In this document: in pieces, positions 34,455 through 39,933 of the stretch
Layout of the letters: each line of letters begins with the position of its first letter
Numbering within the stretch: the stretch's first letter is position 1
DNA from: a virus
DNA length: 50,238 nucleotides
Reading direction: 5' to 3' (one strand)
Virus record (IMG/VR): IMGVR_UViG_3300015360_000063
Location: 1-50,238 of that record
Notes under the pieces: generated by a model
What the model was told of the DNA's origin: nothing
Seen by the model: only the letters and a program-made list of their open reading frames with translations
The model's database searches: none
Program-made: the position numbers and the translations under genes

Positions 34455-35549
34455 ATGACCATTCAAAATGTAGGAAACGCGTCGGCATCGGCATTAGATT
34501 TCGATTTTGCGACAAAAGACGTCTACAAAGAAACAAACCCGTTCGGACAAGCATTAATGGAGTTCGACGCACGCACGGGCATTAAGCCCGACATAAAAGT
34601 CGGTGTAAAAGTGACTGGAACATTAATCTCCAAGAGCGATAAATACGCTTTCGTAGATTTCAAAGGAAAGACATCTGTATGCATTGATGTGACGTCACAG
34701 GAATCGTTGTTACTGGCAAAAATCGAAGTTGGCTCAGAAATCACAGTACTGATAACCTCAGTCACTGACAAAGACACATTCGAAATAGGCGGTTCATTAT
34801 ATCAATTAAAGATGATTGAGATGACTGACTTCTTGGACAGCGTTTATGACAGACGCGGGGGGCTTACCGGTATTCCATCGGAACTTAACCATGCCGGTTA
34901 TAACGTAACCATTAACATCGAGGACCAACAGTTGAGTCTGTTCATGCCACACTTATTGACTGATGTCAATAAATTACCTGACCCTAGCTCAATCATAGGA
35001 ACTGAAATTGAATTCTGTCTAGAACGGGTGAGAAAAGACGGCAATACGTCTTATATTGCATCCAGAAAGGCATTTCTATTGAACATGGCAGTCAAAGAAA
35101 AGCGCAACCTGAAGAAAGGTGGACAATACGACGGATTTGTGACGGGTTGTACTGATTTTGCCGTATTCGTGCAGTTTAATAAGTGTCTTACCGGAATGAT
35201 TCACAAGTCGAATCTTACAGAACAAGCTGTCGCGTTATTGCCAAATATCCCAGCAGGAACGACAATTGAGTTTTATGTCAAAGACATAATGAAAGACAAA
35301 TTGTTCTTGACACAGGTAATCAGAGATTCTTTATGGGATTCCATAGCAATCAACGACGTATTGCCAGGAACAATTTCGAGCATAAAAGATTTCGGAGTTA
35401 TGGTCGATTTAGATTACGAGACTAAAGGCCTATTACACAAGTCAGTGTTACCAAATCCGGTCAATTCGTATAATAAAGGCGACAAAGTCAATGTCATTGT
35501 CACAAACGTGAACAAAAACAACAGACAGATAACTCTAGCTCTAAAATAA
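34455..35549 (+). CDS. S1-domain RNA-binding protein, ribosomal protein S1-like
   Basis: 364 residues made of consecutive OB/S1-type units. Unit 1 is at about 49-118 (GVKVTGTLISKSDKYAFVDF). A degenerate unit lies at about 140-215. The clearest two are at about 222-290 (YDGFVTGCTDFAVFVQF..GMIHKS) and about 297-364 (LPGTISSIKDFGVMVDLD..GLLHKS, ending ITLALK). The G-x-(V/I)-x3-x-x-(F/D)-(F/G)-(A/V)-F-V core and the G-(M/L)-(I/L)-H-K-S turn are diagnostic. S1 recruits mRNAs lacking strong Shine-Dalgarno signals to the 30S subunit. A phage copy could bias translation to phage messages or act in transcription antitermination. The gene ends one base before the next gene starts. Confidence 0.85.
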   Translation: MTIQNVGNASASALDFDFATKDVYKETNPFGQALMEFDARTGIKPDIKVGVKVTGTLISKSDKYAFVDFKGKTSVCIDVTSQESLLLAKIEVGSEITVLITSVTDKDTFEIGGSLYQLKMIEMTDFLDSVYDRRGGLTGIPSELNHAGYNVTINIEDQQLSLFMPHLLTDVNKLPDPSSIIGTEIEFCLERVRKDGNTSYIASRKAFLLNMAVKEKRNLKKGGQYDGFVTGCTDFAVFVQFNKCLTGMIHKSNLTEQAVALLPNIPAGTTIEFYVKDIMKDKLFLTQVIRDSLWDSIAINDVLPGTISSIKDFGVMVDLDYETKGLLHKSVLPNPVNSYNKGDKVNVIVTNVNKNNRQITLALK

Positions 35550-36010: not shown

Positions 36011-36048
36011 AGAAAACCTGCAAATTAATTTGTAGGTTTTCTATTTTT
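36011..36048 (+). terminator. Intrinsic terminator
   Basis: 14-bp stem (36011-36024 with 36029-36042, one G-T pair), loop TTAA, T-rich tail. Directly followed by a late-type promoter box. Confidence 0.88.
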
Positions 36049-36057
36049 ATATATAAT
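36045..36057 (+). promoter_or_regulatory. Late-type promoter motif
   Basis: TTTTATATATAAT overlapping the most upstream ATG (36056) of the terminase paralogue, which argues that translation really begins at 36086. Confidence 0.5.
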
Positions 36058-36085
36058 GTATACAAATAAATCAAAATATCGACAT

Positions 36086-36985
36086 ATGAGAATTTTTAAA
36101 ACAGAAGACATAAACAGGATAATTGAAAAAATTAATCTGGGACATAAAATGTCTAGGAAAAATAATATTTTTTTCAGACACCAAGAAGGCACGTTAGATG
36201 ACGACATTTCTGTGTTATTATCGCAAGACGAGCTTATAGAATATGGCAAGTGTGCCAATGATATTTGTTATTTTATTGAGTCATGCTGTGGTGTGAAATT
36301 GAGACAGTATCAGAAAGAATGGATAGACAATTTCATGAACAACAGGTTCATGATATATTGCACATCGAGACAGACCGGGTATTCCGCCGTCATGGCCGCG
36401 GTGTATTTGCACTACATGATATTCAATAAAAATAAAACCATATTAGTCGTATCGAATAAATGCGCGTCTGCCGTAGAATTTATGCACAAACTGTTTAAAC
36501 ATTATCAGAGAATACCATATTGGATTAAACCTGGCATTGTCACAAAAAATAATAAAAATCTTAAATTTAATAACGGTAACCAAATACGCATGCGGTCCGG
36601 AATAAAAAGTAAACCCACCGAGTTTAGTATTGATTTGTTATCATATATGGAGTTTTCGCATATCCCACAGTCAACACCAGATATGCAATATAACAACACG
36701 TTAGTGCCTGAACTATGTGCAAACACAGAATCTAAGATATGTATACAATCACAACCGGCCGGTTTTGACAGCTTTTATCAATTGATTAACGACTCAGAAC
36801 GTAAACCTAACGACCCAATGAAGAATATCTACAAGACTGTAAAGACATATTGGTGGGAAGTAGACGGGAGAGATGACACATGGAGACAACGTGAGATAAA
36901 CATTATCGGCGCCGACGCATTTGCGCGGGAATATGACCTACAGTTTGTATCGAAAGCCGTTGTACAGACGACAATAAAAATATAA
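36086..36985 (+). CDS. Degenerate terminase ATPase paralogue (P-loop-dead)
   Basis: 299 residues from the ATG at 36086 (309 from 36056, which overlaps the promoter box). It aligns along its whole length with the ATPase domain of the adjacent terminase, including FxKCAxDIxYF, R-(Q/D)-Y-Q, the long helix after the P-loop, KPG(I/L)-x-(N)-x-(N)-x-K and a shared block after it. The catalytic motifs are altered: Walker A SRQTGYS instead of SRQTGKT (Lys and Thr lost), Walker B LLSYMEFSHIP instead of FLYMDEFAHIP (Asp lost), and coupling motif SQPAG instead of STPNG. There is no nuclease domain. The intact frame suggests a retained, non-hydrolysing role, for example as a terminase partner. This is inference. 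Confidence 0.8.
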   Translation: MRIFKTEDINRIIEKINLGHKMSRKNNIFFRHQEGTLDDDISVLLSQDELIEYGKCANDICYFIESCCGVKLRQYQKEWIDNFMNNRFMIYCTSRQTGYSAVMAAVYLHYMIFNKNKTILVVSNKCASAVEFMHKLFKHYQRIPYWIKPGIVTKNNKNLKFNNGNQIRMRSGIKSKPTEFSIDLLSYMEFSHIPQSTPDMQYNNTLVPELCANTESKICIQSQPAGFDSFYQLINDSERKPNDPMKNIYKTVKTYWWEVDGRDDTWRQREINIIGADAFAREYDLQFVSKAVVQTTIKI

Positions 36986-36994
36986 CTAACTGAA

Positions 36995-37513
36995 ATGGGA
37001 AGACATAAGAAAGAGAAAGACCCGATAGAGAAACAGTTTGTATTCACAACAGACGCTGTAAATGACATACGGGAAAAACAGTCGCAAGGCTTTGACATAC
37101 CTAGGTACATGAACCCGTGGTTCAAAAAAGAAATGGGCGTGAGAAGAACCGGTTGTGTATTCGGGTGGACCCAAGAAGAAATAGACGAGTTCACGAAATG
37201 TGCATTAGACATACACTATTTCGCGAACACATACTGTCACATAAAATCCGAAGACGGCCAGATCAGGCAGATGAAATTACGGGATTACCAATATAAAGTG
37301 CTTGACGCGTACACTAAAAACAGATTCACGTTGAACATGTCGTCAAGGCAAACAGGCAAGTGTATAGGTCCTATAACCAACGTGTCGTGTATGATAAATA
37401 ATGCGGTCGTAGAACTACCCATGTTCAAATTGCTGTTTGAGTACAGAGAAAACAAAACATTTTACGACTATATAAAATACCCGATATATTGGGTGTTATG
37501 GAAATTAAACTAA
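36995..37513 (+). CDS. Terminase large subunit N-terminal extein plus N-intein fragment
   Basis: 172 residues. Residues 1-122 are the start of a T4 gp17-like terminase, ending in MSSRQTGK, the first part of the Walker A P-loop. Residue 123 (Cys, codon at 37361) begins an intein: CIGPITNVS matches intein block A with the nucleophilic Cys1. The intein sequence runs 50 residues, then stops before block B. The rest of the intein and terminase is encoded by the gene at 37699. Protein trans-splicing would join Lys122 to Thr of the second chain and restore SRQTGKT. The split between blocks A and B is that of the atypical split inteins with a short N-fragment, such as AceL-TerL. Confidence 0.85.
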   Translation: MGRHKKEKDPIEKQFVFTTDAVNDIREKQSQGFDIPRYMNPWFKKEMGVRRTGCVFGWTQEEIDEFTKCALDIHYFANTYCHIKSEDGQIRQMKLRDYQYKVLDAYTKNRFTLNMSSRQTGKCIGPITNVSCMINNAVVELPMFKLLFEYRENKTFYDYIKYPIYWVLWKLN

Positions 37514-37698: not shown

Positions 37699-39933
37699 AT
37701 GAAAAAAATCATAAATAGAATTCTATTTGACATAATTGAAAAGATAGAGTCATATCAGTACAGAAATACCACTTTAGACCAAGACTGTGTATTAAAAAAA
37801 ACAAAAAACATTACATTCACTGACAAAAAAGATTTGTACGTGGATTCGCCGGAAGGCTGGGTTAAGGTGACTGAAATAAACGAGACACAACCATATAAAA
37901 TATGGTTTATGAAAACAGAAAATGGCAAAGAACTGTTTTGCGCCGATAACCATATCGTGTTCGATAGCTTGGGTCAAGAAATATTAGTTAAAGAATTAAG
38001 TGTAGGCCAACACATAATCACTCGTGACGGATTCGAAAAGATTACTGTTATGTATGTGTACAATACTTCCAATAGTATGATAGATTTGACCGTAGGCGGC
38101 AAAGAAATGAGGTATTACACAAATGATATTTTGAGTCATAACACGATATGCGCGGCAATAACACTACTACATTATTCTATTTTTAATACAAATAAAGGTA
38201 TAATGGTTGTAGCGAATAAGGGCGAGACGGTTATAGAGATTTTGGACAAGATTAAAAATATATACAAGTTACTGCCATTCTTTCTTAAGCCGGGGCTTAT
38301 AAACTGGAACACCAAATCCATAGTTTTTGACAACGGCTGTCGTATAAAATCACAGGCACGTTCAAAAGAACCGGCGATCGGTTTTACGATAGACTTTCTC
38401 TATATGGACGAGTTTGCTCACATTCCGAGGAGTATAATAAACCACTATTACAAGGCCGTTATACCCACAGTGTCGTCCATCAAGAATTCTAAGGTGGTCA
38501 TAACGTCGACACCAAACGGCGCCAATCTGTTCAAAGATTTGGTCATGGGCGCGTCGTTGCCTAATGGGCATGCAGACAAGAATATGTACAGCCTGATAAA
38601 GGTGCTGTGGTATCAAGTACCAGACGGCAAATTTGAAGACGGTACGACCGGGACAAGATTCGACGCACGGCTTTACCCATTGGCATTTGAAATGGCGACA
38701 CACAAGTTCAGTGTCGAGAAGCTCGTGAAACACCTACAAGGTCTCAATTTCAAGGTAGCTATAGAACAGGAGACTACTGATACTGGCAATAAAGATTTCG
38801 TACGTATATTATACAAGGACGGCGTCACAGATGTCGAATCGATCAAGAAGATGGATTTAGACGGACTGAATGTTGCGAAGATTTGTACTATAACGAACTG
38901 GAAAGAGCAGGAGACTAAACTGATCGGTGGCGAAGAGGCATTCAACCAGGAATACGGATGCCAGTTCATTGCCGGGTCTAAGCGGGTGTTGAGCGCGCCA
39001 AAGGCGAAGGAGCTCGAAGCGCGTACCGAAGTTTATAAGACCAGAGAGATTGAGATTCTGACAAAGAGACTGCGATTCACGTATAACGAGCTGCGTTGGG
39101 CACCTGATTATATAGAGCACGAGAGAAACAACTACTACTGGGTTTCCATGATGGATGTGTCAGAGGGTTTGGGACTGGATGACTCGGTAATCAATCTGTT
39201 CAGGCTGATGGTGAGGCCCAAATCTTGGTTGTTGGAAAACAAGATCAAGACGATGTACGACGCGTTCTACCTAAAACAGACGGGCATATACAATTTTAAC
39301 CGATTAGACCACAAGAAGGAACTGCCTGAGTTATTTTACATGTTACATTTCGAGTACTTAAATCCCGAACGCGTTAAATCCGTTGTAGAATACAACGGGC
39401 CGGGTTCCACGTTCATAGTGGCGCTCAACCAGGTGTTTGACGGAAACAACGATTTCGGTAGTCACGTGCTAGTCAGGTATAAACATAGGACGGATGACAA
39501 CACAAAAAAAATGGGTCTTAAGGTCAGCCGTAACAAAAAAGAGCTGGTGAAATCGTACATAGACTGTATCGAGACGGACATGCTGTATGTAGACGAGAAT
39601 ATCACGCTGGACCAGATGGATAATTTCATAAAGGTTGACACCAGGAGCGGTGACGTGACGTATCGTGCTGACGCAGGACACGACGATATAGTTATGACGT
39701 TAGTCGGCGGCGCCACATATTTTGATACCCAGGATTATAAAAATATGTGTTTTAACTATTATAACGAGCTTTCTGGAGAGTACCAGGGGTTAATTGACAA
39801 GGCATTAGACCTGGAACACAATCCTAATGCTATATCGTATAAGAGCATGAGCGCGGCTCTGGCCAAAAGTAAGAAATCAATAAGCCGTACAAACAGATTT
39901 TCTGGTGGACGAGGCCGTTTTATGGGGAAATAA
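37699..39933 (+). CDS. C-intein fragment plus terminase large subunit C-terminal extein
   Basis: 744 residues. Residues 1-148 are the C-intein: block B-like GKELFCADNHIVFD, block F-like MIDLTVGGKEMRYYTND and block G ILSHN with the terminal His-Asn, followed by Thr149 (codon 38143) as the +1 residue. The remaining 596 residues are the terminase: Walker B FLYMDEFAHIP (about 233), coupling motif STPNG, and the RNase H-like nuclease with MMDVSEG (about 485), VVEYNGPG and GHDDIVMT (about 661). Relative to the paralogue upstream, an extra ~80 residues are inserted before the ATPase end. With the N-piece the spliced terminase would be 718 residues. It packages DNA into the prohead at the portal. Confidence 0.88.
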   Translation: MKKIINRILFDIIEKIESYQYRNTTLDQDCVLKKTKNITFTDKKDLYVDSPEGWVKVTEINETQPYKIWFMKTENGKELFCADNHIVFDSLGQEILVKELSVGQHIITRDGFEKITVMYVYNTSNSMIDLTVGGKEMRYYTNDILSHNTICAAITLLHYSIFNTNKGIMVVANKGETVIEILDKIKNIYKLLPFFLKPGLINWNTKSIVFDNGCRIKSQARSKEPAIGFTIDFLYMDEFAHIPRSIINHYYKAVIPTVSSIKNSKVVITSTPNGANLFKDLVMGASLPNGHADKNMYSLIKVLWYQVPDGKFEDGTTGTRFDARLYPLAFEMATHKFSVEKLVKHLQGLNFKVAIEQETTDTGNKDFVRILYKDGVTDVESIKKMDLDGLNVAKICTITNWKEQETKLIGGEEAFNQEYGCQFIAGSKRVLSAPKAKELEARTEVYKTREIEILTKRLRFTYNELRWAPDYIEHERNNYYWVSMMDVSEGLGLDDSVINLFRLMVRPKSWLLENKIKTMYDAFYLKQTGIYNFNRLDHKKELPELFYMLHFEYLNPERVKSVVEYNGPGSTFIVALNQVFDGNNDFGSHVLVRYKHRTDDNTKKMGLKVSRNKKELVKSYIDCIETDMLYVDENITLDQMDNFIKVDTRSGDVTYRADAGHDDIVMTLVGGATYFDTQDYKNMCFNYYNELSGEYQGLIDKALDLEHNPNAISYKSMSAALAKSKKSISRTNRFSGGRGRFMGK

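Follow-up and report, generated by a model that had tools for sequence, protein, structure and literature searches.

The window analysed here, a 50,238-base IMG/VR virus record, carries just upstream of its large terminase gene (terL) what its residues and a predicted structure indicate is a genuine, recurrent TerL-derived pseudo-ATPase, equivalent to the N-terminal ATPase domain of large terminases of the T4 type, its fold kept. Similar proteins accompany a full TerL in five further huge-phage genomes, several of the carriers being distantly related. We put at about an even chance the reading that the paralogue is under selection and acts on the packaging motor as a partner that does not hydrolyse ATP. 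The features of the region are as follows.

36011–36042, + strand: terminator-like hairpin, 14 pairs then a T run, 3' of the upstream 147-aa gene (z −5.6)
36050–36057, + strand: TATATAAT promoter-like box, a motif enriched 5' of this phage's genes
36086–36985, + strand: predicted pseudo-ATPase, TerL ATPase-domain paralogue; 299 aa from Met11, 309 aa if the start is 36056
36365–36385, + strand: Walker A equivalent SRQTGYS; P-loop Lys replaced by Tyr, Thr by Ser
36635–36655, + strand: Walker B equivalent LLSYMEF; Asp replaced by Met, Glu kept
36749–36763, + strand: motif III (coupling motif) equivalent SQPAG, replacing STPNG; Thr and Asn lost
36995–37360, + strand: active TerL, N-extein, ending at SRQTGK
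37361–37513, + strand: N-terminal half of split intein, 50 aa plus stop
37699–38142, + strand: C-terminal half of split intein, 148 aa, ending HN
38143–39933, + strand: active TerL, C-extein, with the rest of the ATPase domain and the nuclease domain

The frame of the paralogue (36056–36985, 309 codons) is open and intact, as a preliminary description had stated, and ends 9 bp upstream of terL. Translation probably starts at Met11 (36086, 299 aa) rather than at the first ATG (36056), because the promoter-like box overlaps that ATG, Met11 lines up with the initial Met of the paralogue in phage LR756501, and residues 1–8 have low confidence in the AlphaFold2 model. The box begins 36 bp 5' of Met11, a spacing also found at other window genes. 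It is one of 21 such sites in the window (e.g. 31518, 34396, 36050 and 39959), and TATATAA is present in 14 of 46 upstream regions compared with about one expected. The hairpin at 36011–36042 closes the preceding unit. Three relatives (L101, L103 and L104), whose TerLs are 67–70% identical to that of the window and whose gene order is the same, have a similar hairpin and the same or nearly the same box directly 5' of terL, with the paralogue absent; the window paralogue therefore leads terL's unit. It sits between the promoter-like box and terL, either as a gain in this lineage or through loss in the relatives. The box earlier described as the paralogue's own is thus present, but in these relatives it fronts terL. 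Further upstream, at 34455–35549, the structural gene block encodes a protein with S1 RNA-binding domains, a position conserved in the same three relatives.

Homology to the TerL ATPase domain extends well beyond short motifs, as had been proposed: residues 13–297 align (33% identity, E 1e-48) to the TerL that the window itself encodes, and TerL profiles are matched (PHROG 5989, E 1.6e-33; PHROG 2, E 3e-15), with a Pfam Terminase_6N match (E 0.002) below the cutoff. The AlphaFold2 model, built on a 36-row alignment, is confident (pLDDT 87.8, pTM 0.86). Its best solved matches are T4 gp17 structures (3cpe, 2o0j and 2o0h; Z about 27.7, 263–268 residues, 2.3–3.0 Å), that to 3cpe covering 267 residues at 2.6 Å and 23% identity (Z 27.8); the P74-26 and HK97 TerLs come next. 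Model residues 14–301 correspond to gp17 residues 69–360, and the paralogue therefore stops at the boundary between ATPase and nuclease domains. The protein thus has neither a nuclease domain nor an intein, in agreement with the preliminary description. Compared with a TerL of the T4 gp17 type it has the ASCE ATPase fold and lacks the P-loop Lys, an intact Asp–Glu pair in Walker B, STPNG and a C-terminal RNase H-like nuclease domain. Nor does it resemble a gp16-type small terminase (a small helical oligomer of gp16-like sequence), since it has an ATPase fold.

That all of its catalytic motifs are degraded, as first described, holds only in part. The Walker A Lys (now Y), the Walker B Asp (now M) and the Thr and Asn of STPNG are lost, but seven of the 11 conserved motif residues remain: R, Q and G of Walker A, E of Walker B, and S, P and G of motif III. 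A test for motif erosion within single proteins was negative: in the window protein the motifs are not significantly more eroded than its remaining conserved residues, of which 29 of 40 are kept (Fisher p 0.41). The lost residues are key for phosphate binding, magnesium binding and coupling in P-loop ATPases and in gp17, and from their loss the window paralogue is predicted to be unable to hold ATP in the normal way.

Profile scans yielded about 230 TerL-related loci. ATPase-only TerL paralogues occur together with a full TerL in LR756501, LR756504, LR756500 and two IMG/VR phages. The copy in LR756501 (735 kb) has 390 aa, with orthologues on the short contigs L020 (83% identical) and L311 (69%), on which no TerL was seen. 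In LR756504 (636 kb) the paralogue runs across the record end; in LR756500 (462 kb) it has 270 aa and lies directly 3' of a split-intein TerL. The IMG/VR copies have 245 aa (3300020048_006428; orthologue L298, 98%) and 308 aa (3300042308_001616; orthologue L303, 96%). Together with the window copy these form a proposed group of six ATPase-only pseudo-TerLs, defined by absence of the P-loop Lys and motif III Thr and by a full TerL in the genome, and their frames are intact throughout. No paralogue was seen in LR756502 (642 kb) or LR745206 (635 kb), no second TerL copy in whole-record searches of a further 48 contigs (20–95 kb, all fragments), and no orthologue of the window copy in single-protein scans of IMG/VR and GTDB genomes. 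Four other candidates (L300, L301, L312 and L313) proved to be normal TerLs and were rejected as paralogues, as was gp87 of Sphingomonas phage PAU, that phage's real TerL.

Only two of 52 near-invariant TerL columns are lost in all six paralogues, namely the P-loop Lys and the motif III Thr. The Lys, kept in 33 of 33 aligned TerLs, has become Y, I, M, I, V and T. About 0.15 such columns would be expected under independent losses, a comparison that overstates the surprise as four of the copies may share an origin; for the same reason, and given the long tree branches, the losses in the six copies do not count as six independent events. The signal of catalytic loss lies in its recurrence across genomes, not in erosion within the window protein. 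These patterns also bear on whether the protein still uses ATP through a non-canonical P-loop, or serves as an N-terminal TerL fragment complementing the intein-split TerL. That the window copy retains SRQ-G and the Walker B Glu, and that four of the six carriers have a split-intein TerL, would suit such a role; but the Lys is missing from every copy, and LR756504 and 3300042308_001616 combine the paralogue with an unsplit TerL, so that we regard this reading as very improbable.

The window's active TerL (36995–37513 plus 37699–39933) is split by an intein at the junction SRQTGK|T, and homologous splits were found in LR756501, LR756500, L104 and others. P-loop intein splits are common among huge-phage TerLs (many of L104–L149); in LR756501 (L017) the two intein halves lie about 12 kb apart, and in LR756500 (L309/L314) an endonuclease-like ORF lies between them. 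The suggestion that the paralogue displays the empty insertion site needs qualifying: it has no intein, but because the Lys at the junction is altered it is not a clean empty site, and the intein-free TerLs of L101 and L103 are better examples.

The history of the copies was examined in a tree built with the motif columns removed. The LR756501 paralogue group is sister to LR756501's own TerL (98/97) and thus appears to be a separate duplication. The window, LR756504, LR756500 and 3300020048_006428 copies cluster (84/80; 99/94 without the window copy), and the 3300042308_001616 copy, with its very long branch, falls outside them. Long branches meet in this tree, and a common origin for all copies is not rejected by the AU test (p 0.24). 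The tree does not favour recent copying of terL within the window's phage, yet the AU test does not reject descent of the window copy from the window TerL lineage by duplication (p 0.34). Most huge-phage TerLs carry an insert of roughly 70–110 residues between the end of a GR..T stretch and a conserved W..GG.F.QE stretch; it is present in the window TerL (38143–39933) and in L004, L006, L007 and L017, and missing from the LR756500 TerL, from T4-like TerLs (e.g. L300) and from the majority of pseudo-TerLs. The four clustered paralogues all lack it, and this common absence would fit an old origin.

Whether such copies are maintained was approached through dN/dS (Nei–Gojobori) for paralogues with orthologue pairs. 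Values were 0.137 (LR756501/L020), 0.128 (LR756501/L311), 0.211 (L020/L311) and 0.117 (3300042308_001616/L303), with 0.35 for 3300020048_006428/L298, a pair with few changes. These paralogues are thus mostly under purifying selection, four of five comparisons falling at 0.12–0.21. A TerL pair (L101/L103) gave 0.139 and the genes neighbouring the paralogue in the LR756501/L020 pair 0–0.08; constraint on the paralogue is therefore similar to that on this TerL pair and weaker than on its own neighbours. Selection on the window copy we infer from its kind, i.e. from its relatives' paralogues, as it has no known orthologue. The claim of selection rather than decay is accordingly supported for the kind, with five further genomes sharing the same key losses; no relative with a pseudogene copy was found. 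A functionless duplicate in slow decay would account for the window copy's long branch (1.47 changes per column), for motifs no more eroded than the remainder of the protein, and for the absence of an orthologue in the IMG/VR and GTDB scans. We consider this distinctly unlikely, given intact frames in six genomes, the confident predicted fold, the same two residues lost in every copy, and orthologue pairs 83–96% identical with dN/dS of 0.12–0.14 (the 98% pair, with few changes, being the one at 0.35).

Gene location speaks less uniformly. The paralogue adjoins terL only in the window and LR756500 and lies far from it in the other four phages, and because its location is not conserved, operon linkage with terL is not general. 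This wider placement, with the copies of LR756501 and 3300042308_001616 neighbouring non-packaging genes, could point to a TerL fold put to another use away from the packaging ring, perhaps in a protein that binds DNA or RNA or is coupled to replication and no longer uses ATP; the ATPase fold is common to superfamily 2 helicases. Against such a job stand the window and LR756500 copies, which lie within the terminase/tail-sheath block, and the fold itself, to which gp17 is the closest match by a wide margin over non-terminases. We therefore treat it as a possible but rather unlikely explanation.

It had also been proposed that the paralogue substitutes for the small terminase subunit (TerS), and the other carriers argue against this. 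A gp16-like candidate family of 205–260 aa adjoins TerL in LR756502, LR745206, LR756504, LR756500, 3300020048_006428 and 3300042308_001616, and in LR756501 a member is present away from TerL. All five other paralogue-bearing phages therefore encode a candidate, beside TerL in four. The LR756500 member has a weak match to a PHROG terminase small subunit (E 2.6e-4), and since the family profile matches T4-like gp16 only weakly (hhalign probability 51%), the family remains a candidate. Its loci include L004:7312–7926, L007:10323–10952, L318, L319, L320 and L321, which are unannotated and too diverged for Pfam. If these candidates are TerS, the pseudo-ATPase would not be a TerS substitute where a phage encodes the two. 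The 50-kb window showed no gp16-like protein, a point that would favour substitution, but the window is a fragment, and the paralogue-free relatives G002–G004, likewise fragments, show none either. As a gp16-like candidate and a full TerL coexist with the paralogue in five other phages, replacement of TerS is highly unlikely.

A further alternative concerns bacterial defence. STAND proteins of the Avs1–3 type detect TerL, and a TerL look-alike without bound ATP might occupy such a sensor without triggering it. The model does match the TerL in an Avs3 complex (8dgc, Z 19.9), and scattered presence with fast divergence would agree with an arms race; but nothing ties these phages to hosts that carry Avs, and the idea is drawn from known Avs biology. 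We judge a decoy function more doubtful still than slow decay of the gene.

The motor role that we put at about an even chance draws on the predicted fold, the lost residues, intact frames, recurrence, purifying selection on the paralogues with orthologue pairs, coexistence with TerL and a TerS candidate, and the position in the terL block, which together suggest it. The paralogue would be made together with TerL and would occupy one or more places of the TerL ring at the portal, or alternatively bind the same partners as TerL, namely portal, small terminase and DNA. Whether seated within the ring, capping the portal or holding on to TerS or DNA, it might tune initiation, speed, pausing or release while a genome of several hundred kb is packaged. 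More tentatively, and in our estimation rather improbably, the ring could be heteromeric, with ATP-dead, nuclease-less subunits as fixed non-firing positions beside active TerL, an arrangement that would have arisen on more than one occasion during genome growth to several hundred kb. T4 motors doped with ATPase-defective gp17 can carry one to three dead subunits and still package, though at lower speed and with more frequent pauses (PMC8589836), and by analogy ring mixing of pseudo-ATPase and TerL may be plausible; work cited in the same paper reports that a dead subunit stops packaging where the motor is strictly coordinated, as in lambda. A main doubt about a motor role is that four of the six copies lie far from terL.

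Tailed-phage packaging motors are treated as rings of one ATPase, and whether every subunit has to fire has been studied with engineered dead ones. A spare ATPase copy predicted to be unable to hold ATP normally, yet kept intact by selection where this can be tested, suggests that a dead subunit may be built into these motors or may control them. A natural dead subunit recurring in the largest phages would give the question of whether all subunits must fire a biological case, and a heteromeric ring, if true, would be the first natural mixed terminase motor. A recurrent pseudo-ATPase clearly concerns those who study packaging motors. Huge-phage trees, moreover, use TerL as their standard marker, and unrecognized paralogues can therefore enter such trees as false TerLs. 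Searches of open-access papers for inactive or duplicate terminases turned up nothing relevant, and a TerL-derived pseudo-ATPase is apparently undescribed in the literature searched.

Among known systems, the N-terminal ATPase domain of T4 gp17 (2o0h, 2o0j, 3cpe) shares with the paralogue the whole-domain fold, Q motif, SRQ-G, Walker B Glu and subdomain II; unlike gp17, the paralogue lacks the P-loop Lys, Walker B Asp, motif III Thr and Asn and the nuclease domain, and has a complete TerL encoded beside it. AceL-TerL is a natural TerL of the split-intein type, and the active TerL beside the paralogue is divided at its P-loop in a broadly similar manner, whereas the paralogue has no intein and has lost the junction Lys. 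The internal-start gp17 products of T4 (annotated in NC_000866) are likewise truncated terminase products additional to the full one, but they retain ATPase and nuclease activity and lack the N-terminus, whereas the paralogue lacks the C-terminal nuclease and has a predicted dead site. T4 motors doped with ATPase-defective gp17 Q163A (PMC8589836) also place an inactive terminase subunit beside active ones, an experimental precedent for tolerance; those subunits are engineered full-length point mutants, whereas the paralogue is a natural ATPase-only protein.
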